DNA of 43,881 nt from positions 1-43,881 of IMG/VR virus record IMGVR_UViG_3300029902_000001. One strand, 5' to 3'. The stretch comes from a virus. The translations under genes were made by a program, and so were the position numbers. Below, in pieces: positions 6,503 to 43,881 of the stretch (position 1 is its first letter; each line of letters begins with the position of its first letter). The notes below the pieces were generated by a model. The model saw only the letters and a program-made list of their open reading frames with translations, searched no databases and was not told the origin of the DNA.

Positions 6503-6848
6503 GCAACATGGTGCAGTCAATAACCAGACTATCACCACAGCAGGAAATAGCGGCTACCTACCTAACCTACTCAGCAACGATGACCGCGCCGGAAACATGA
6601 CAATTTTTATTGACTCCGGTGTTGTTTCTGGCACCACGCCATCACTCATTGTCACTGTGTACGAAGCCTTGACCGCTGGCGGGAAGCTCGCTCAGGTGTA
6701 CCAATTCGCCCCAATCATAGCAACACAGACCGGATTGATACGTCAAGCATTGCAACAGATTCTTGCACCTTATGTCTATATCGGGTGGACAATTTCAGGC
6801 ACAACGCCACAATTCGTTGGCATGACAGTCAACACATTATTTAGCTAA
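6492..6848 (+). CDS. Small structural-like protein of unknown function
   Basis: 118 residues, ATG after AAAGG, overlapping the preceding small gene by 11 bases. Composition is Thr, Gly and Ile-rich with beta-strand spacing (NMTIFIDSGVV, SLIVTVYEAL, YVYIGWTISG), like small virion decoration or fibre-accessory proteins. There is no membrane segment and no catalytic motif. It lies between the spanin-like genes and the endolysin, in an unusual place for a virion protein. Confidence 0.5.
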   Translation: MSIRQHGAVNNQTITTAGNSGYLPNLLSNDDRAGNMTIFIDSGVVSGTTPSLIVTVYEALTAGGKLAQVYQFAPIIATQTGLIRQALQQILAPYVYIGWTISGTTPQFVGMTVNTLFS

Positions 6849-6859
6849 GGAGACCTACA

Positions 6860-7849
6860 ATGGATAATAAAAACAACGTTGGGCGCATCGCTGGTAAGAC
6901 CGTTCTCTTCATCGGTATCGAATGCAGGAATTGGAGCGTCGAGCAGTTTGCCCAAGCCGCAAGAGAAGCACGTGCCCTTGGAATCGACACCATCTCACCT
7001 AAGCGACTAGACGGTACTGTTCGCTGGTATGGCACCCCGCAGCACCTTCAAGAAGAGGCAAAAGCAGTCAACGCCGCTGGTTGTGGCTATCTCCCATTTG
7101 CCTATTGTTACGGACCACGTTTCGGATTAGGCTTTGTCAATGAAGAGTGTGCTGTCCTCACTGAGATGCAAGACGCTATGGGCGCACTGCAACCAGACGG
7201 TATCGGATTTGTTTGTGCCGACCTTGAAATCGAGTACAATGGTCAAGTTGAAGCAGCCAAGCGATTCAATGCCGCGATGCAAAACAAGCACCTGTTGTAT
7301 CTCACGTCTTGGGCTGACCCACAGTGGCAGTCTTGGGCGGGTGTGTTGAACGAACTTCGTGGTTGTATCAACTGCTATATTCCCCAAAGCTACAATGACC
7401 AACTGAATAACCTCGAACGTATCCAAGTGCCAAACGACCTTGTGGTTCAGGTTGCGGTTGACGTTAGCTATGAATTTGGTGGCGGGAATCATCCGGTGGT
7501 CATTGCTCAACAGCGTGCAGCATTGGGTGATACAACGGTTTGGATTTGGGATTATTCCTTCCTTGGCTCGTTCCGGTCAAATGTCTCCGGTGTGGTTCAG
7601 GCGATGAGCGGTGTGAAACTTGTTGGCGATGCTCCACAAAGCGTCCCAGCCCCCGCGCCAACACCTGCCCAACCAGCACCTATTCAAGAGCGCACAGTCA
7701 CAGTAGAGCCAGGGGATAGCCTGAGTGTCATTGCCCAACGTGTGTATAACAACGGCAACGAGTGGGGCAAAATCTTCGATGCTAACCGTGACAAAATCAG
7801 TGACCCAAATCATATTGAAGCAGGTTGGGTGTTACGCATCCCCGCCTGA
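6860..7849 (+). CDS. Endolysin: barrel-like hydrolase with C-terminal LysM
   Basis: 329 residues, AAGGAGAC before the ATG. Residues 1-245 look like a TIM-barrel glycoside hydrolase domain (LFIGIECRNWS, GCGYLPFAYCYG, VCADLEIEYNG, CYIPQSYND, VWIWDYSF) of the kind used as phage muramidases; Asp and Glu in CADLEIE are candidate catalytic residues. A Pro/Ala-rich linker (about 258-275) leads to a LysM domain (279-329: VEPGDSLSVIAQRVY, then WVLRIPA), which binds N-acetylglucosamine in peptidoglycan. A holin gene follows by 11 bases. No signal peptide, so export needs the holin. Exact GH family uncertain. Confidence 0.75.
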   Translation: MDNKNNVGRIAGKTVLFIGIECRNWSVEQFAQAAREARALGIDTISPKRLDGTVRWYGTPQHLQEEAKAVNAAGCGYLPFAYCYGPRFGLGFVNEECAVLTEMQDAMGALQPDGIGFVCADLEIEYNGQVEAAKRFNAAMQNKHLLYLTSWADPQWQSWAGVLNELRGCINCYIPQSYNDQLNNLERIQVPNDLVVQVAVDVSYEFGGGNHPVVIAQQRAALGDTTVWIWDYSFLGSFRSNVSGVVQAMSGVKLVGDAPQSVPAPAPTPAQPAPIQERTVTVEPGDSLSVIAQRVYNNGNEWGKIFDANRDKISDPNHIEAGWVLRIPA

Positions 7850-14687: not shown

Positions 14688-14936
14688 TTACACTGCCAGC
14701 CATCCGTTGGTGCTCGGAATGTTATGCAGGGTTAGGTATTCCTGTAATTCATTCCAATTCCGGTGGGTTATCTTCGTCAGGTTTTCATCTTCAGTGATGA
14801 AATTGTTTTGGTCGTCTTGTGTCACACGCATCACTCGCCCTGGTGCCATTGGAAAATAGGCTTTGCGTAGTGGGCTTGAATTTATTGCTGTGGACAGTCT
14901 GGTTGGTTGCGCGGGGGGCGGTGGATTCTTTGGCAT
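14688..14936 (-). CDS. Small paralogue D of a four-gene array
   Basis: 82 residues from ATG 14936 (AGAGGAGAAAACC upstream). The C-terminal 45 residues show the array pattern: a short strand (NFITEDENL), then NWNELQEYLTLHNIPSTNGWL, matching the W-x-D/E-(V/L)-x-x-(Y/F)-(L/M)...(I/V)-x-(I/L)-N/H-x-x-W ending of the next three genes. The N-terminus differs (Pro-rich, MPKNPPPPAQPTR). Most diverged member. Function unknown. Confidence 0.65.
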   Translation of the reverse strand: MPKNPPPPAQPTRLSTAINSSPLRKAYFPMAPGRVMRVTQDDQNNFITEDENLTKITHRNWNELQEYLTLHNIPSTNGWLAV

Positions 14937-14953
14937 GGTTTTCTCCTCTGGTG

Positions 14954-15181
14954 TTAGACTGATTCCCAACCTGAATTGAGTGAGACAAAGTTTGAGCGCA
15001 TGAACACCAATACGTCGGTCCATGTCAGCTTGGTCAAGACCGTGTAGTGTGGGTCTGTAATGCTGTACATGCCATCTTTTTGAACGCTGACGGTGTAATG
15101 GTTGGATGGCGGGGCGTACATCTGGTGAAATGCTGTATGAGACGGACTACCAGCAAGTGCTGTTTTGAGGTCTGTTCGCAT
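14954..15181 (-). CDS. Small paralogue C of a four-gene array
   Basis: 75 residues from the ATG at 15181, part of a TAATG overlap with the previous stop. Pattern: short N-terminal helix (LKTALAGSPSHTAF), beta pair (YTVSVQKDGMYSIT), then LTWTDVLVFMRSNFVSLNSGW. The final W-D-V helix and N-S-x-W ending match the neighbours. No catalytic motif; it looks like a small alpha/beta adaptor or inhibitor. Confidence 0.7.
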   Translation of the reverse strand: MRTDLKTALAGSPSHTAFHQMYAPPSNHYTVSVQKDGMYSITDPHYTVLTKLTWTDVLVFMRSNFVSLNSGWESV

Positions 15182-15399
15182 TACATCGATGTCCAATCTG
15201 AATTGATAGGGATGTAATGTGAATGCAGATAGCGAACCACATCATCCCAGGTTGCGTTGTGATACTCTTTGAGGTCTTCGGCGGTGACACGATAGACTCC
15301 GGTACGAGTTTCACGTACAACGACACGTTTGGTAATCGCGCCTGGGGTGAAGTGTGTTGCGGCGTGGTTTCGAGTGCTGAGTGCTTCCTGTAATCCCAT
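15181..15399 (-). CDS. Small paralogue B of a four-gene array
   Basis: 72 residues, start at the ATG of a TAATG overlap at 15399. Contains LQEALSTRNHAATHF, a beta pair (RVVVRETRTGVYRVTAE), then ATWDDVVRYLHSHYIPINSDW. Closest to paralogue A in the last 30 residues (DDVVRYLHSHYIPINSDW against QDVIVYLHGRHISIHTDW). Confidence 0.7.
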   Translation of the reverse strand: MGLQEALSTRNHAATHFTPGAITKRVVVRETRTGVYRVTAEDLKEYHNATWDDVVRYLHSHYIPINSDWTSM

Positions 15400-15617
15400 T
15401 AGCGTGCCTTCCAATCTGTATGAATTGAGATATGCCGACCATGCAGGTAGACAATGACATCTTGCCAGCTAATACCAGCGAACTCTTTCAAGGTCTCTGT
15501 CGTTAGTGTGAATGTACCGTTGGGGTTCTCTTTGATATTCAGCACAACGCCGTCATCAAGTGTACGAAACGCGGCTTTGTTTGGGCTGGCATCAATTGCT
15601 TGCATGAGACTCTTCAT
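15399..15617 (-). CDS. Small paralogue A of a four-gene array
   Basis: 72 residues from ATG 15617 (GGAAGGAATAACC upstream), first of the array, just after the kinase stop. Contains LMQAIDASPNKAAF, a beta pair (VVLNIKENPNGTFTLT), then ISWQDVIVYLHGRHISIHTDW. Shares length, order of elements and the final helix plus strand with the other three. Confidence 0.7.
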   Translation of the reverse strand: MKSLMQAIDASPNKAAFRTLDDGVVLNIKENPNGTFTLTTETLKEFAGISWQDVIVYLHGRHISIHTDWKAR

Positions 15618-15619
15618 GG

Positions 15620-16183
15620 TTATTCCTTCCACCATTTTTTGATTTGTTCGACTTGAAACTCTAATGACGTTCCAACCAGTAAGAGCAGTTCATCGGGGTC
15701 TGATACCACTTGTTCGGCGATATGCTCAGGGTTGACCGCTATACCTCGTTGGGCGCAGACGTTGTTAGAATCAACAAAGCGTACCAGCTTGAAGCCACGA
15801 GGTTTGAGCATCTCTAGTTGTGAGGCAAAGCGGACGTTATCAAAGACTGCTGGCATGCCACTTGTTTTCAGGACACGCGTGACCACATCAACGTAGCCAC
15901 CGTTATCGAAGCCAAGCAGGGTGCCAAGTTCTTGTAACATCGGACGGTACTTTGCTTTATTGGCTTTGACATCCGCTACGGTTAGTTCACGCGGTAAGTT
16001 TGCCAACTGTGCATAGTCAATCTCGTTCAACATTATCACCAACAACTTTTTGAGTGTATCGGTGTAATTGCACAGGGCGAATTTCTCAGTATCCTCTAAG
16101 TACTTTGCCAGGGTGGTCTTCCCTGAGTGCATTGGGCCTGTAAGTGCTATGCGAATTGGTTTCAGTTTTCTCCCCCACTTCAT
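15620..16183 (-). CDS. Deoxynucleoside monophosphate kinase-like P-loop protein
   Basis: 187 residues. A Walker A motif lies near residues 14-22 (TGPMHSGKTT). A later DNVRFASQLEML segment matches the D-x-R-F region of phage dNMP kinases such as T4 gp1, and a C-terminal basic helix ends the chain. Start: ATG 16183, overlapping the preceding stop (GCATGA). Likely role: converting dNMPs to dNDPs for phage DNA synthesis. Substrate range cannot be read from sequence. Confidence 0.7.
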   Translation of the reverse strand: MKWGRKLKPIRIALTGPMHSGKTTLAKYLEDTEKFALCNYTDTLKKLLVIMLNEIDYAQLANLPRELTVADVKANKAKYRPMLQELGTLLGFDNGGYVDVVTRVLKTSGMPAVFDNVRFASQLEMLKPRGFKLVRFVDSNNVCAQRGIAVNPEHIAEQVVSDPDELLLLVGTSLEFQVEQIKKWWKE

Positions 16184-19093: not shown

Positions 19094-20023
19094 TTATGCT
19101 ACTGCTGCTTTGACTGCTTCATCACGCACGATGGTTGTATCAACATAGGTCATCAGTGGCGGGTACCAAACAGCTGAGACCATTGCCGGACTTGGGCCGT
19201 TGCGTTGTTTCAACAGATGAAACTGTGCATCTTTTGGGTCACTCAAAAACTCTTCGGCAACTTTTGCATAGATGTCTGGTCGGTTGATTCCCCATACGTT
19301 TGAGGCATCTTGTTCAATTGTACCACTATCACGCAAGTCACTCAATTGCGGAGTATGGTCGCCGCGTTTTTCGACTTCACGGTTCATCTGCGCAAGAACC
19401 AGACCTGGGGCGACCTTCAAGCATACTTCGGTAAACATAGCACTGAGGTCACTTGTGCGCGAGTAGGCGTTTGCGGTACTGCCAGGACGGTAGGGCATCT
19501 TTTGTAGGTAGTCTACGCCAAACCACAATGTTGGCTTCTCAGGACTATTTGGCCCAGGACGTAGCCACGCCACCGTCTCATCAATGCTTGTTGGCTCTAG
19601 GTACTGGATTGGCAGTCGGGCCATATCGCGTGCAGCAGCAACATACGCACTTGCTTGCTCATCAGTCACACGACCCTCACGAATAGAACGCATCGGCACT
19701 CTGGACTTCATGCTCAAAATGCGTTGCTGTACACTTGCTGGCGACATCTCAGCAGAAACAATGCGAACGACCTTATCAATTTTGTTTTCCAAGGCCCATT
19801 CTGCGATGAAGAGTGCTATCTGACAGAGAAGCGCGGTTTTACCTACGCCTGGACGTGCCATGATAACTGTCATCTCTTCTTTGTGGATGCCACCAGTCAG
19901 TTGATTGAAGCCAGCAAACGGCCAGGGTATACCCCATACCGCGCCAGGATTCGCACGACGTTCTTGTAATCGGCTGACCAATTCTTTACTAACCTCAGCG
20001 GCGGTGAACACACGTTGTGGCAT
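19094..20023 (-). CDS. Replicative DNA helicase, DnaB-type RecA domain
   Basis: 309 residues from ATG 20023, joined to the initiator's stop as TGATG. Walker A is MARPGVGKTALL, followed by VSAEMSPASVQQRI. Walker B lies in WFGVDYLQKM, and the DnaB signature LSDLRDSGTIEQDAS is clear. The protein is shorter than bacterial DnaB (about 450) and seems to lack the N-terminal primase-binding domain, so contact with the phage primase may differ. Coupled translation with the initiator fits a loader-helicase pair. Confidence 0.9.
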   Translation of the reverse strand: MPQRVFTAAEVSKELVSRLQERRANPGAVWGIPWPFAGFNQLTGGIHKEEMTVIMARPGVGKTALLCQIALFIAEWALENKIDKVVRIVSAEMSPASVQQRILSMKSRVPMRSIREGRVTDEQASAYVAAARDMARLPIQYLEPTSIDETVAWLRPGPNSPEKPTLWFGVDYLQKMPYRPGSTANAYSRTSDLSAMFTEVCLKVAPGLVLAQMNREVEKRGDHTPQLSDLRDSGTIEQDASNVWGINRPDIYAKVAEEFLSDPKDAQFHLLKQRNGPSPAMVSAVWYPPLMTYVDTTIVRDEAVKAAVA

Positions 20024-20979
20024 CAAATTCCCCCTAAAGCTAAATGTGCGTACTTGGCACGATTGGCTATCCAACGCGCCTTGTCTTCTTCGGTCGGTTC
20101 TGTCAGTTCAAACGGCTTATCCATTTCTGATGATACCACGTGCTGCGGTGCTTTGGCAAGGGCTTCTTCTTGACGATTCTTCAAGACCTTCGACACATAT
20201 GATACGCCGAACTCTTGGTTGGTACGCACTTTTCGTTCTGCCAGTTCTTCAAGCAGCAACACCACGTCCTCAGCACAATCGTTGGTAAAGCGGAGCCATG
20301 TACGTGCCATCTCTTGCTGCAACGTGTATGGCGAGAGTTTCAATTCTGCCCAAGCGCGTAGCAACAACCCCACTTGCTCACGTCGGCGCAATTGATATGG
20401 ACTGCCTTGAATGTTTGTTGGACCTTCGCTCGACATCCTATCCGCATCGCACGCCAGCGTCAACAATGAAATAGGTTCTTCGATGTACTCAAATTGCTGT
20501 TCAGCGGGAATTACTTGAAGCGCATCGGGTATGATTTTCATACTCTTGGCCCCATTGGGGTGTATGGTTTTCATACAGTCAGCCTCCACAGGTGTATGAT
20601 TTTCATACACCCCCCCCTCTTGGGGTGTATGATTTTCATACACCCTAGTGCTTGGGGGTGTATGATTTTCATACACCTCAGCGGTGGGGGGTGTATGATT
20701 TTCATACACCTGGGGGGCTAGGGGTGTATGATTTTCATACAGGGGTGTATGGTTTTCATACAGGGGGTGTATGAAATTCATACAGGGGGGTGTATGATTT
20801 TCATACCATTGGGTAGGGTTTTCATACCCCAAATTTTTCAATTCTTTCAGGGCTGTGTAAATTGTTTGACGGTCCGTTGTGCCAATTCCTTGCATAATCG
20901 AAGCCACAGAGGTATCCTCAGCCTCGAAAAGAAGAAATAAAAGCACTTTTGCCGTTGAACCGCGCATGTTTTCAAACAC
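20023..20979 (-). CDS. Replication initiator / helicase loader with iterons in its gene
   Basis: 318 residues from GTG 20979 (TAGGAGG seven bases upstream). Residues 1-52 look like a winged helix (GSTAKVLLFLLFEAED, TDRQTIYTALKELKNLGYE). Residues 52-150 are a repetitive linker of YENHTP and related units, forced by the DNA iterons beneath. The C-terminal part (about 190-318) is helical and charged (LLRAWAELKLSPYTL, EEDKARWIANRAKYAHL) and may bind the helicase, as the C-terminus of lambda O or DnaD-type loaders does. The order winged helix, linker with origin, helicase-binding end mirrors lambda O, and a DnaB-type gene follows directly. No sequence match to O is claimed. Confidence 0.75.
   Translation of the reverse strand: MFENMRGSTAKVLLFLLFEAEDTSVASIMQGIGTTDRQTIYTALKELKNLGYENPTQWYENHTPPCMNFIHPLYENHTPLYENHTPLAPQVYENHTPPTAEVYENHTPPSTRVYENHTPQEGGVYENHTPVEADCMKTIHPNGAKSMKIIPDALQVIPAEQQFEYIEEPISLLTLACDADRMSSEGPTNIQGSPYQLRRREQVGLLLRAWAELKLSPYTLQQEMARTWLRFTNDCAEDVVLLLEELAERKVRTNQEFGVSYVSKVLKNRQEEALAKAPQHVVSSEMDKPFELTEPTEEDKARWIANRAKYAHLALGGI
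20529..20827. repeat. Iteron array, probable replication origin (11 dyad units)
   Basis: Core GTATGATTTTCATAC: two 6-base arms in perfect dyad around TTT. Starts: 20529, 20562, 20594, 20627, 20660, 20693, 20726, 20747, 20769, 20792, 20813 (last one degenerate). Spacings are 33, 32, 33, 33, 33, 33, then 21, 22, 23, 21, close to three and then two helical turns. G-rich runs fill the gaps. Units fall in two reading frames of the host gene, so DNA, not protein, is conserved. Likely initiator-binding sites. Confidence 0.85.
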
Positions 20980-21491
20980 CGCTCGCCTCCTATAAAAGCA
21001 GTTACGTAACTAATTACTAATTAAGCTTAAGTACGTTACTACTTTCTGACGACCAAAGGGAGTTAGAGAGTAGTAATGTTAAATAACTTGGACTTGGACT
21101 TGGTTGACCCACTTGGTATGTAACTTGGACTAGGTTAATTAGTTAGTTAGTTAGTTAGTTTATCAGTGAGGCAGCACGACCAACGGGAGTGATACCTCTC
21201 TGATACCCCTAGTCCTTGAAACTTGAACTTGGGAGACCAACCATATCTGGGTTACTTGACTTGGCTAGGCTCTTGCCGAATTGCTTGGTGGAGCACTAAG
21301 GCTTTGAATGGTTGTGTAACTTCGACCGTCGCCATACAAGGGTGGGTCTCTAGAGCGAAGCGACACAACAGCCCTAGAAAGCCTCTTGAAACGCTAAGTG
21401 GCATAATGGTACTACTTTCTCTGTAGAAACGTCTGTTGCCTCATGCTTCGACCTTCTAGGGGCATCTGTGATAGGGTGAGGGGGTGAAGTT
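20980..21491. other. Non-coding AT-rich region beside the iterons
   Basis: No convincing gene in about 510 bases. It holds palindromes GTTACGTAAC (21001-21010) and TTAAGCTTAA (21021-21030), the direct repeat TAATTA-C-TAATTA, six ACTTGG words (three in tandem at 21086-21103, then 21111, 21123 and 21259), and five tandem TTAG units. It lies upstream of the initiator GTG, so it should hold that gene's promoter, but I see no good -35/-10 pair. The AT-rich part could be the unwinding element of the origin. Confidence 0.5.
21139..21158. repeat. (TTAG)5 tandem repeat
   Basis: Five perfect TTAG units in an AT-rich stretch about 310 bases from the nearest iteron. Candidate unwinding element or slippage-prone repeat. 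Confidence 0.7.
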
Positions 21492-21519
21492 AAAGGCCCA
21501 CTCTTACGAATGGACCTTT
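21492..21519 (-). terminator. Hairpin after the Rad52-like gene
   Basis: On the minus strand AAAGGTCCA pairs with TGGGCCTTT (nine pairs, one G-U) around a ten-base loop, 23 bases after the stop at 21543. The U tract is short, so termination may be partial. The plus strand reads CCTTTTT after its version of the stem. Confidence 0.55.
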
Positions 21520-21542
21520 TTGAGAGTAAAACTGTTTGGGGG

Positions 21543-29834: not shown

Positions 29835-30923
29835 ATGTACAAGTTTGCAGCAGTTCTGTTAGTATTGATGACCGGACTAGTGGCTCATTCACCTGCGCAA
29901 AGCAAGAGTAGCCCTATAGCGAACCTACCCTGTGCAACAACCGGACCATATGTACAGACAGACGGTACGAACCTGACAAGCAACGGAGCAGTTTTAAAGT
30001 TACGTGGCTATACGTTTTACCCTGCGACGACAGGTGGAACGAGCGCATGGCACAGCACGAACTTTCAGGCATACGAAGACAATATACTCAGTGTTGGACT
30101 AAGCGGCGGTCAGAACTTGATACGCCCAACCGATTTCTGGAACAAATCCACACCGAATCAGAATGCGTTTGACCCTACAGTTTGGGCGAACATGGACCAT
30201 TTAGTTTGCAAAGCTGCGAGTGAAGGCGTCTACGTCATCATGGACCTATCAGCATACAAATGGCTCTTAGTGAGTCAAGGTCAAGACCCAAGTGTAGCGA
30301 CGAACTGGAAGAACTTTTTGGATGTCATCGCACACCATTACAGTCAAGCTCCGAACATTGCTTTTTACAGTCTTGTTGGCGAGCCAGCCTATCCACAGAG
30401 TGCAGCAGAAGATGCGACGTTGACCGCTTTCTACAAGTATGTAACTGATGAAGTTGCTGGTCAAGACAAGAACCATTTGATAAGTGCTGGCGGCTTCAAC
30501 AACATGAACAATGGCTATCCTGGTTGGTGGAAGTCAATCTACAATTTGGCCCACAACAACGTAGCATTGTTCAAGACGTATTCTCAGCATGACATCGACC
30601 TCATGCCAACGATTCTGAACTACACCCACAGTATCACCAAACCAGCTATCGATGAAGAGTTCGGAATGCCTCAAAGCTTAGGCGACGGCAGCTATAGTGG
30701 ACAGGCGTACAATGGCATTACAACCAGCCGCGCTCAGTTTTACCAGACGGTGTATACCAATGGTGAGAACCTAGCTACTGCCGGATTTGTATTTTGGAAT
30801 TTGGCAGACCTCTCAGGTTCAACGCATTACGATGTCTACCCTGGTACAACCCCCGCTGTTTGGCAGGTCATTCAGCAACATGGAACCGCGCCCGTTTCAA
30901 CGCCGAAACCCTGTGGCGCATAA
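29835..30923 (+). CDS. Secreted GH5-like glycoside hydrolase
   Basis: 362 residues, AAAGGAG before the ATG. A signal peptide covers about residues 1-23 (YKFAAVLLVLMTGLVAHS, then PAQSK). The barrel follows with GH5-type motifs: GYTFYPATT, NLIRPTDFW, SLVGEPAYP (candidate acid/base Glu183), TYSQHDIDL, and AIDEEFGMP (candidate nucleophile Glu275), then FVFWNLAD. The usual Asn before the acid/base Glu is Gly here (V-G-E-P). Likely cuts a mannan, cellulose-like or capsular polysaccharide outside the cell. It is the first gene of the late operon, before the secreted CHAP gene. Confidence 0.8.
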   Translation: MYKFAAVLLVLMTGLVAHSPAQSKSSPIANLPCATTGPYVQTDGTNLTSNGAVLKLRGYTFYPATTGGTSAWHSTNFQAYEDNILSVGLSGGQNLIRPTDFWNKSTPNQNAFDPTVWANMDHLVCKAASEGVYVIMDLSAYKWLLVSQGQDPSVATNWKNFLDVIAHHYSQAPNIAFYSLVGEPAYPQSAAEDATLTAFYKYVTDEVAGQDKNHLISAGGFNNMNNGYPGWWKSIYNLAHNNVALFKTYSQHDIDLMPTILNYTHSITKPAIDEEFGMPQSLGDGSYSGQAYNGITTSRAQFYQTVYTNGENLATAGFVFWNLADLSGSTHYDVYPGTTPAVWQVIQQHGTAPVSTPKPCGA

Positions 30924-30931
30924 GGAAGTGT

Positions 30932-31528
30932 ATGCACAAGTTCATCGTCACCCTATCTCTGCTGCTATTGGTTGGTCTCCTCAGTCTCAGTCCAAAACCA
31001 GTCGAAGCGGCAAGTAACTCGTGGATGTGTCGAACATGGCATTCTCATGGCTGGACCTACACACATTGCACGCGCTACTGGCATTGGCACAACGGTGTTC
31101 AGATATCAGATGATGCTTGGGTGCCAAACTTTACTATCGAGAGTCAACCAGTTAAATATGCTAATGTGCAGCGCGTTCCAACAAGTTCCGGCAACTCATA
31201 TCTTTGGGGCCAGTGTACATACGGAGCAGCGGCTTTAGCACATAACTCAGTGAACAACCTTGGCGATGCACGCAATTGGGCTTACAACGCTCGAAACCGT
31301 GGCATGGCAGTTGGCACAAGTCCCGTAGCAGGTTCAACAGTAGTGTTTCCAGCGGGGTATCACGTCAGCAACTTTGGTACAGGTACAGGTCATGTAGCTC
31401 ATGTCGATGCGGTCTCAGGCAATATGATTGAGATAACCGAGATGAACAACAGCTACTACGGTGGCTTTGGTCGGTACGATACTATTTGGTTGTACGCTAT
31501 CCCAGGCGTGGTTGAGTATATTTATTAG
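30932..31528 (+). CDS. Secreted CHAP-domain peptidoglycan hydrolase
   Basis: 198 residues from ATG 30932 (AAGGAAG upstream). Signal peptide about residues 1-26, cleavage expected after VEA. A Trp/His-rich spacer (31-55) precedes a CHAP domain: catalytic Cys95 in LWGQCTYGAA, His154 in GTGHVAHVDAV, and ITEMNNSYYGG carrying the Asn/Glu region. CHAP enzymes cut peptidoglycan peptides or amide bonds. Having its own signal, it could act from outside or in the periplasm without the holin. It directly follows the secreted GH5-like gene. Confidence 0.8.
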   Translation: MHKFIVTLSLLLLVGLLSLSPKPVEAASNSWMCRTWHSHGWTYTHCTRYWHWHNGVQISDDAWVPNFTIESQPVKYANVQRVPTSSGNSYLWGQCTYGAAALAHNSVNNLGDARNWAYNARNRGMAVGTSPVAGSTVVFPAGYHVSNFGTGTGHVAHVDAVSGNMIEITEMNNSYYGGFGRYDTIWLYAIPGVVEYIY

Positions 31529-43173: not shown

Positions 43174-43881
43174 ATGGCGACAAACCTTTTTACCTACAAC
43201 CAGTCAACTGCTGAAACTAATACAACAGGTTTTACCGCTGTCGCCACGACACTGAGCCAGGACACCACACAGGCATGGCAGGGAACGCATGCTATCAAGG
43301 TGGTGAGTAGTGGGGTCGGCTCATATCAGGGTGTTCAGGTATTCATCCCCGCATCGCAGTTCGCACCGAGTACCACCTATTCCTTTTCTTGCTATCTCTA
43401 CGTGTCATCGGGTACACCTTCGCTGCGATTTTACATTCAGACCGACACAGGAAGTTTTGGTGGCGTAGGAACTATTAGCCCCACGTCAGGGAGTTGGCAG
43501 CGTTTTACCAGTACCATTACCACAGGCGCGACCATTACTAGTACCGAGTTTGGTTTGCGTTGGGATACTGGTTCTACGGCGCAGGCTGTCACTATCTGGA
43601 TGGATGGTCTACAATGTGAGATAGGCTCCGCAGCAACCACGTTTACCGTTGGTGGGTTTAGCTTTCCTACCATTACCTTTGCCGCTGCTGGTGCCCTCTC
43701 TACAACGCTGGCGGTGACTGGTAGCGGGAGTGCGTATGATGCCGCAGTCAAAGCAGATACACCAGTTCTCTTTTGGACATTGAACGATGCTGCATCCCCG
43801 ACTACTATTGTTGACTCATCTACTGGTGGTCATCCTGGTACACCTCTTGGCACCCTGACTTTTCAACAAAGCGGACCTGCG
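43174..43881 (+). CDS. Tail hub / glycosidase protein, N-terminal part (continues at base 1)
   Basis: ATG at 43174 follows AGGGG at a normal distance. The frame is open to the last base and is in phase with base 1 through the 77-bp terminal overlap. Residues 1 to about 150 look like a jelly-roll carbohydrate-binding module of the CBM4/9 kind: beta-rich, aromatic, with a repeated S.TYSFSCYL and WQRFTSTI pattern. After that comes a Gly/Ala/Thr-rich linker, then the start of the LamG-like domain (VKADTPVLFWTLND). It lies 30 bases after the gene ending at 43143. The carbohydrate-binding assignment rests on pattern only; the closure with 1-3429 is directly visible. Confidence 0.8.
   Translation, partial: MATNLFTYNQSTAETNTTGFTAVATTLSQDTTQAWQGTHAIKVVSSGVGSYQGVQVFIPASQFAPSTTYSFSCYLYVSSGTPSLRFYIQTDTGSFGGVGTISPTSGSWQRFTSTITTGATITSTEFGLRWDTGSTAQAVTIWMDGLQCEIGSAATTFTVGGFSFPTITFAAAGALSTTLAVTGSGSAYDAAVKADTPVLFWTLNDAASPTTIVDSSTGGHPGTPLGTLTFQQSGPA
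43804..43881. repeat. Terminal overlap, right copy
   Basis: Right copy of the 77-bp overlap described at 1-77, plus one divergent final base. Removing it gives a circle of 43,803 bp. Confidence 0.9.

Follow-up and report, generated by a model that had tools for sequence, protein, structure and literature searches.

Experimental precedents for an iteron array lying within an initiator gene are provided by the O protein of phage lambda (PMC5043065, PMC6022878) and by the Rep protein of pSK41 (PMC5703833). Lambda iterons, 18–19 bp in length, are inverted repeats linked through adenines, and dimers of O bind them (PMC5043065, PMC6022878). Stx phages possess six iterons and a correspondingly longer O protein (PMC7466680). 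In the RepA_N plasmids, the iterons occupy the central part of rep, where the encoded linker is dispensable as protein (PMC5703833); most of these iterons are semi-palindromes that converge at a poly-A tract (PMC7145576), and they are bound by the winged-helix N-terminal domain (NTD) of the plasmid initiator (PMC5703833, PMC7145576).

We analysed a whole IMG/VR record of 43,881 bases (termed here the window), which derives from an uncultured phage and contains an array of dyads in the middle of a gene. This array is very probably the replication origin of the phage, with predicted binding by the protein that the same gene encodes, and a mechanism of the lambda/RepA_N type is the best-supported model for it. 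Dyad units and in-gene arrays are not novel in themselves, both being known from lambda and from RepA_N plasmids. The features on which the argument turns are as follows:

19094..20023, minus strand: DnaB_C-type helicase domain protein (Pfam DnaB_C, E 7.3e-45, residues 36–284; DnaB-like phrog_19)
20023..20979, minus strand: putative replication initiator of 318 aa, with a GTG start and an AGGAGG ribosome-binding site
20529..20740: long-spaced iteron block of seven units (20529, 20562, 20594, 20627, 20660, 20693, 20726; steps 33, 32, 33, 33, 33, 33)
20726..20827: short-spaced iteron block (units 20726, which is common to both blocks, 20747, 20769, 20792, 20813; steps 21, 22, 23, 21)
20800..20850: alternative candidate unwinding site, a weaker AT-rich stretch (z 2.1) in a lambda-like position in the gene
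20980..21165: candidate DNA-unwinding region, AT-rich and non-coding, upstream of the putative initiator gene (nearest-neighbour stability profile)

Composition, phasing and reading frames of the array

The 15-bp dyad (GTATGATTTTCATAC, or GTATGAAAATCATAC on the coding strand) occurs eleven times between 20529 and 20827, and all eleven copies fall inside the one 318-aa ORF (20979–20023, minus strand), which agrees with the original prediction in both number and placement. Seven units are exact (starting at 20529, 20594, 20627, 20660, 20693, 20726 and 20792), two carry a single mismatch (20562 and 20747) and two carry two mismatches (20769 and 20813), the last unit (20813, GTAGGGTTTTCATAC) being degenerate. 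The dyad symmetry that characterizes the iterons of lambda-type origins is present as perfect 6-bp arms in eight of the eleven, and in four of the 33-bp-spaced units the palindrome is longer, extending to about GGTGTATGATTTTCATACACC. By chance, 1.35 matches with three or fewer mismatches would be expected in the whole window, and the highest count in 100 shuffles was four.

Steps between successive units measure 33, 32, 33, 33, 33, 33, 21, 22, 23 and 21 bp, such that a spacing of 33 bp gives way to one near 22 bp, as had been claimed, with the short-spaced block being the part of the array closest to the sequence that codes for the N-terminal domain. The further claim that these steps are whole helical turns, placing the sites on one face, is not borne out for normal B-DNA: The steps are multiples of 11, and the phase coherence of the dyads is R = 0.93 at 11 bp per turn vs. 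0.22 at 10.5 bp per turn. On ordinary B-DNA, each long-spaced dyad would be turned by ~50 degrees relative to the one before, spiralling around the helix, and the dyads lie on one face only if bound or supercoiled DNA has ~11 bp per turn. Nor is the two-spacing pattern distinct, as first supposed, since the unrelated contig L031 also has spacings of ~33 and then 21–22 bp (in a non-coding GTATGNTTTTCATAC dyad array at 6806–6909, with steps of about 33, 35 and 21 bp) and steps of 21–24 bp are common in other phage arrays. Conjecturally, the short block may form a core near the AT-rich side, with the long block auxiliary to it in the manner of the extra iterons of Stx phages.

Eight of the units are carried in one frame (seven reading YENHTP and one YENPTQ) and three in a second (MKIIP, MKTIHP and MNFIHP), and the predicted split of eight and three thus stands, with the one variant hexapeptide among the eight. 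Because the third frame of the unit is closed by a TGA (GTA TGA), two frames are the maximum possible, and both of the stop-free frames are occupied. Synonymous recoding that held the protein fixed and used the phage's own codon usage (5000 trials) produced a mean of 4.1 units and a maximum of 9, compared to the 11 observed, with none of the 5000 trials reaching the observed number; perfect 6-bp-arm dyads numbered at most 3, compared to 8 in the phage. Copies of the 18-base spacers share only 31% identity over their inner ten bases, which indicates that the dyad copies are not a fresh duplication, and the three second-frame units encode unrelated peptides, yet none of them has more than two departures from the dyad consensus. 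With the spacers diverged and the dyads near invariant, selection acts on the DNA dyad and not on the encoded peptide, as the original prediction had proposed.

The putative initiator and its genomic surroundings

The putative initiator is laid out as an HTH-like N-terminus (residues ~10–52), a repeat linker (~52–150) and a helical C-terminus, and as a protein it is without detectable family. Its match to Pfam HTH_11 (E 0.097) is below threshold, and its PHROG match, to the DnaD-like loader phrog_186 (E 0.032), is below significance and confined to residues 6–52. Among the Pfam and PHROG profiles, there was no match to Phage_rep_O (PF04492) or to an O-like PHROG; Pfam likewise gave no match to the RepA_N N-terminal domain (PF06970), and hhalign against nine RepA_N proteins returned a probability of ~0 (0.1%). 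A search of the PDB yielded a chance match alone (E 0.037), tblastn against phages and plasmids recovered nothing at E < 0.01, and a search for related loci with the protein found none. An AlphaFold model built with no homologues (pLDDT 35.6) was meaningless and was set aside. For the winged helix of the original prediction, the only match is the weak, sub-threshold one to HTH_11 (E 0.097), and a full winged helix is doubtful because the coding sequence of this short domain passes directly into degenerate unit 20813, leaving little room for a wing. A helicase-binding end, also part of that prediction, was an inference that no tool backed.

The adjoining gene does encode a DnaB-type protein, as anticipated, its DnaB_C ATPase domain being confirmed at E 7.3e-45, and its ATG overlaps the TGA of the putative initiator (TGATG), an arrangement that suggests translational coupling of the two genes. 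Both genes belong to a minus-strand replication module that also holds PDDEXK nuclease, primase, PolA, dNMP-kinase-like and Holliday-junction-resolvase-like genes, as well as a Rad52-type annealing protein, and the plus strand of this siphovirus-like genome carries the structural genes (TerL, portal, major head protein and tape measure). Because the two 78-base ends (1–78 and 43804–43881) agree at 77 positions, with only the last base differing, the assembly closes on itself and the genome is probably complete. Rfam and tRNA searches found nothing. Querying with the DnaB-type helicase recovered six distant relatives (28–34% identity), and no dyads comparable to those of the window were noticed in the genes beside them, where the check by script was confined to L015; the TerL query recovered two relatives (47–48%), whose contigs end before the replication module.

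Elsewhere in the window, a tail-type protein that spans the contig ends (1–3429 and 43174–43881) combines a Laminin_G_3 with a GH5 cellulase domain (E 4e-26) and is probably a polysaccharide hydrolase carried on the virion. Another, separate gene of GH5 cellulase-like type (29835–30923), whose product has an apparent signal peptide, adjoins a CHAP-domain gene (30914–31528), and four small ORFs in succession (14688–15635; 77–111 aa), which have similar HxIPxNxxW-like ends, look like tandem paralogues.

Directly before the putative initiator gene lies a 560-base non-coding region (20980–21540) that contains AACTTGGACTTGG and GTTAGTTAGTTAG repeats and two stretches that are among the genome's least stable. 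Within it, 20980–21165 ranks with the least stable 50-bp windows found genome-wide (z 3.4 at 21000 and 3.6 at 21118) and is situated about 150–300 bp off the dyad array, not abutting it. The weaker AT-rich stretch at 20800–20850 touches the short-spaced block. That one or the other of these stretches is where unwinding takes place we can only infer.

Taken together, the dyads, the use of two frames, the selection on DNA, the DnaB neighbour and the presence of like arrays elsewhere make the array a convincing candidate for an origin, and the layout is most likely the lambda O-like one that had been predicted, i.e., an in-gene iteron origin with a DnaB-type gene adjoining. The putative initiator would bind the eleven dyads through its short N-terminal HTH, one dimer per dyad, and the stretch encoded by the array would, as far as the protein goes, be a flexible linker only. 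The filled array would then bend and strain the DNA, the strain would open an AT-rich stretch nearby (20980–21165 or the weaker 20800–20850), and the C-terminal part of the putative initiator would recruit the DnaB-type helicase of the next, translationally coupled gene. Points against an origin are that the protein has no significant initiator-family match, that the searches yielded no close relative in which conservation could be judged, that the clearest AT-rich region is ~150–300 bp away, and that the array has a strong potential to form RNA hairpins.

Similar dyads elsewhere and other possible roles of the array

Pattern scans for paired dyads, run over viral and genome collections, recovered three sorts of loci. 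The original prediction had suggested a search for the 15-mer array in related phage initiator genes. A DNA search with the array in phages and plasmids returned chance matches only (E > 7); similar dyads are present in L018, L023, L025 and L101. In these four, dyads of the GTATG/ATATG type (15–17 bp) lie in the linker in two or three frames, at steps of 11–24 bp in most, with 3–5 units each compared to 11 in the window, and the proteins differ in family (O-like, replication initiation, DUF1376/primosomal, or no match). L023 is O-like (E 1.1e-8; dyad GTATGCTGTGCATAC in the linker), and L025 has a replication initiation match (E 3.6e-5; dyad GTATGGAAACCATAC in the linker), and next after its initiator gene comes a DnaB gene that shares 27% identity with the DnaB-type helicase gene of the window. 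L101, along with L099, represents DUF1376/primosomal-like genes with dyads in the linker. L018 has three units, 22 bp apart and in three different frames; its gene and that of L020 gave no profile match and were called initiator-like by eye. In another set of phages (L020, L027 and its kin, L038, L105 and L108), a small gene precedes the dyads, which begin directly 3' of its stop codon, and four of these small genes have weak initiator- or primosome-type matches.

In a non-blind assessment by eye, a link to an initiator was seen for 9 of 30 test loci (6 of ~17 independent groups) vs. none of the 14 loci (~9 groups) recovered with a control dyad matched in base composition, a difference that is suggestive only. 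Matches in L008, L098, L112, L114 and L116 were rejected as coding repeats of other proteins, and those in L009, L016/L019/L022, L017/L021, the L029 group and others had no link to an initiator. The proteins that use GTATGA have, by eye, K/R-Q in their recognition helix, a possible specificity code, but R-Q is common in such helices. We offer only tentatively, as a possibility we consider doubtful given small counts judged by eye, that TATGA-NNN-TCATA is a recurring iteron code across unrelated phage initiator classes and RepA_N plasmids, travelling as a movable module of HTH plus iterons, in frame or just after the stop; the array in the window would then be the largest of this kind found here.

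The same scans brought up TGTATGAWWWTCATACA pairs, 23 bp apart and mostly intergenic, in Bacteroidales contigs (L045–L053, L055–L057, L059–L081 and L083–L097). Their core is identical to the phage iteron core, several adjoin genes for NtrC-type response regulators or ABC/FtsX-like or TolC-like proteins, and the pairs look like a conserved regulator operator. That one dyad turns up in initiators unrelated to each other, in plasmid Reps and in operators of Bacteroidales raises the testable question of whether it reflects convergent HTH recognition or the transfer of an HTH-iteron module.

These pairs, near-identical dyads in ~48 loci, also bear on the alternative that survives best, though it is improbable: that the dyads of the phage are operators by which a transcription factor of the phage or the host, or the HTH protein acting as an autorepressor, switches the expression of the replication operon or of internal promoters, with replication starting elsewhere. 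Because the Bacteroidales pairs look like transcription-factor sites, the dyad sequence can serve as an operator. However, eleven tandem copies in mid-gene, 150–450 bp from the start codon, would be unusual for operators; promoter-like sites in the region (9 vs. 5.5 expected, sd 2.3) are not clearly above shuffles; and a place beside DnaB, along with parallel arrays in initiator genes, suits an origin better.

It is less likely still that the array works as RNA, with a large stack of mRNA hairpins controlling how the initiator/DnaB message is translated or how stable it is. Both strands do fold far better than shuffles (minus strand, –145.9 kcal/mol, z –14.0), but this extends to the plus strand (z –14.8), and any tandem DNA palindrome would fold so. 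In addition, mRNA pairing is weaker in three units (20562 and 20747, each with an A–C, and 20813, in which an arm is broken), like arrays sit outside genes in other phages, and 11-bp steps have no obvious meaning in RNA.

We give equally little credence to the array being a partition or segregation (centromere-like) site, or a site for initiator titration (handcuffing, copy control), and not the start point. In iteron plasmids, additional iterons often have a control role, and the two classes of spacing could split duties between them. The number of units also exceeds the four of lambda and the six of Stx phages (PMC7466680). However, no ParA/ParB-type gene was noticed among the genes examined, which were part of the ORFs, and a location within an initiator-like gene that has DnaB alongside is the layout of an origin. 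Finally, that YENHTP is a protein repeat spread by tandem duplication, with the DNA dyad a mere by-product, is scarcely credible, since the seven identical hexapeptides in tandem are offset by recoding that falls short of the observed dyads in every trial, by three units with unrelated peptides in the other frame, and by the diverged spacers.

An origin within the gene thus being the preferred reading, the analysis locates, in an uncultured phage, a probable origin and a candidate initiator that belongs to no recognisable family, and it provides a simple rule by which initiators missed by profiles might be found: a dyad array in mid-gene, in more than one frame, with DnaB next.

Comparison with RepA_N plasmids and lambda

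Contrary to the original prediction, the dyad units do not look distinct: Lambda iterons are inverted repeats, most RepA_N iterons are semi-palindromes, and the same 15-mer occurs in the rep linker of an Enterococcus RepA_N system. The linker of this Enterococcus Rep (L054/L082; Pfam RepA_N, E 4.5e-28) contains three copies of GGTATGAAAATCATACC, and L054/L118 carries a 15-mer identical to that of the window. Nine RepA_N proteins were compared, L054 and eight taken from plasmid records. Seven of the nine have dyads in the linker position, with arms particular to each family (TTGCGAAAATCGCAA, CTGTAAAAAGTACAG, AGTTCAAAAAATGAACT, TTCCGAAAAACGGAA and CTAAAGATTCTTTAG, with the 15-mer of the window in L054 and L118); the script detected no dyads in L120 and L121.

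The window thus resembles the RepA_N systems (pSK41, pTZ2162, and the Enterococcus and Lactobacillales RepA) in having semi-palindromic iterons with a poly-A centre in the linker of rep, and shares its very 15-mer with L054. It differs in that the sampled RepA_N genes have two or three units in one frame at a spacing of 42–63 bp, and in that their NTD is undetected in the protein of the window. To Phage_rep_O the protein has no detectable relation, and the array departs from ori-lambda in its eleven units, its different arms (GTATGA/TCATAC), its two frames and its two spacings; moreover, the neighbouring gene in lambda encodes a P-type loader, whereas that in the window encodes the DnaB-type helicase itself. 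Ori-lambda has an AT-rich stretch near its iterons; in the window a strong one lies 150–300 bp from the array and a weaker one adjoins it. The overall plan is nevertheless that of lambda O and ori-lambda (PMC5043065, PMC6022878, PMC7466680): the iterons sit within the gene of the initiator (a putative one in the window) and are inverted repeats centred on A residues, and the protein is composed of an N-terminal DNA-binding domain (predicted and HTH-like in the window), a linker and a C-terminal part.
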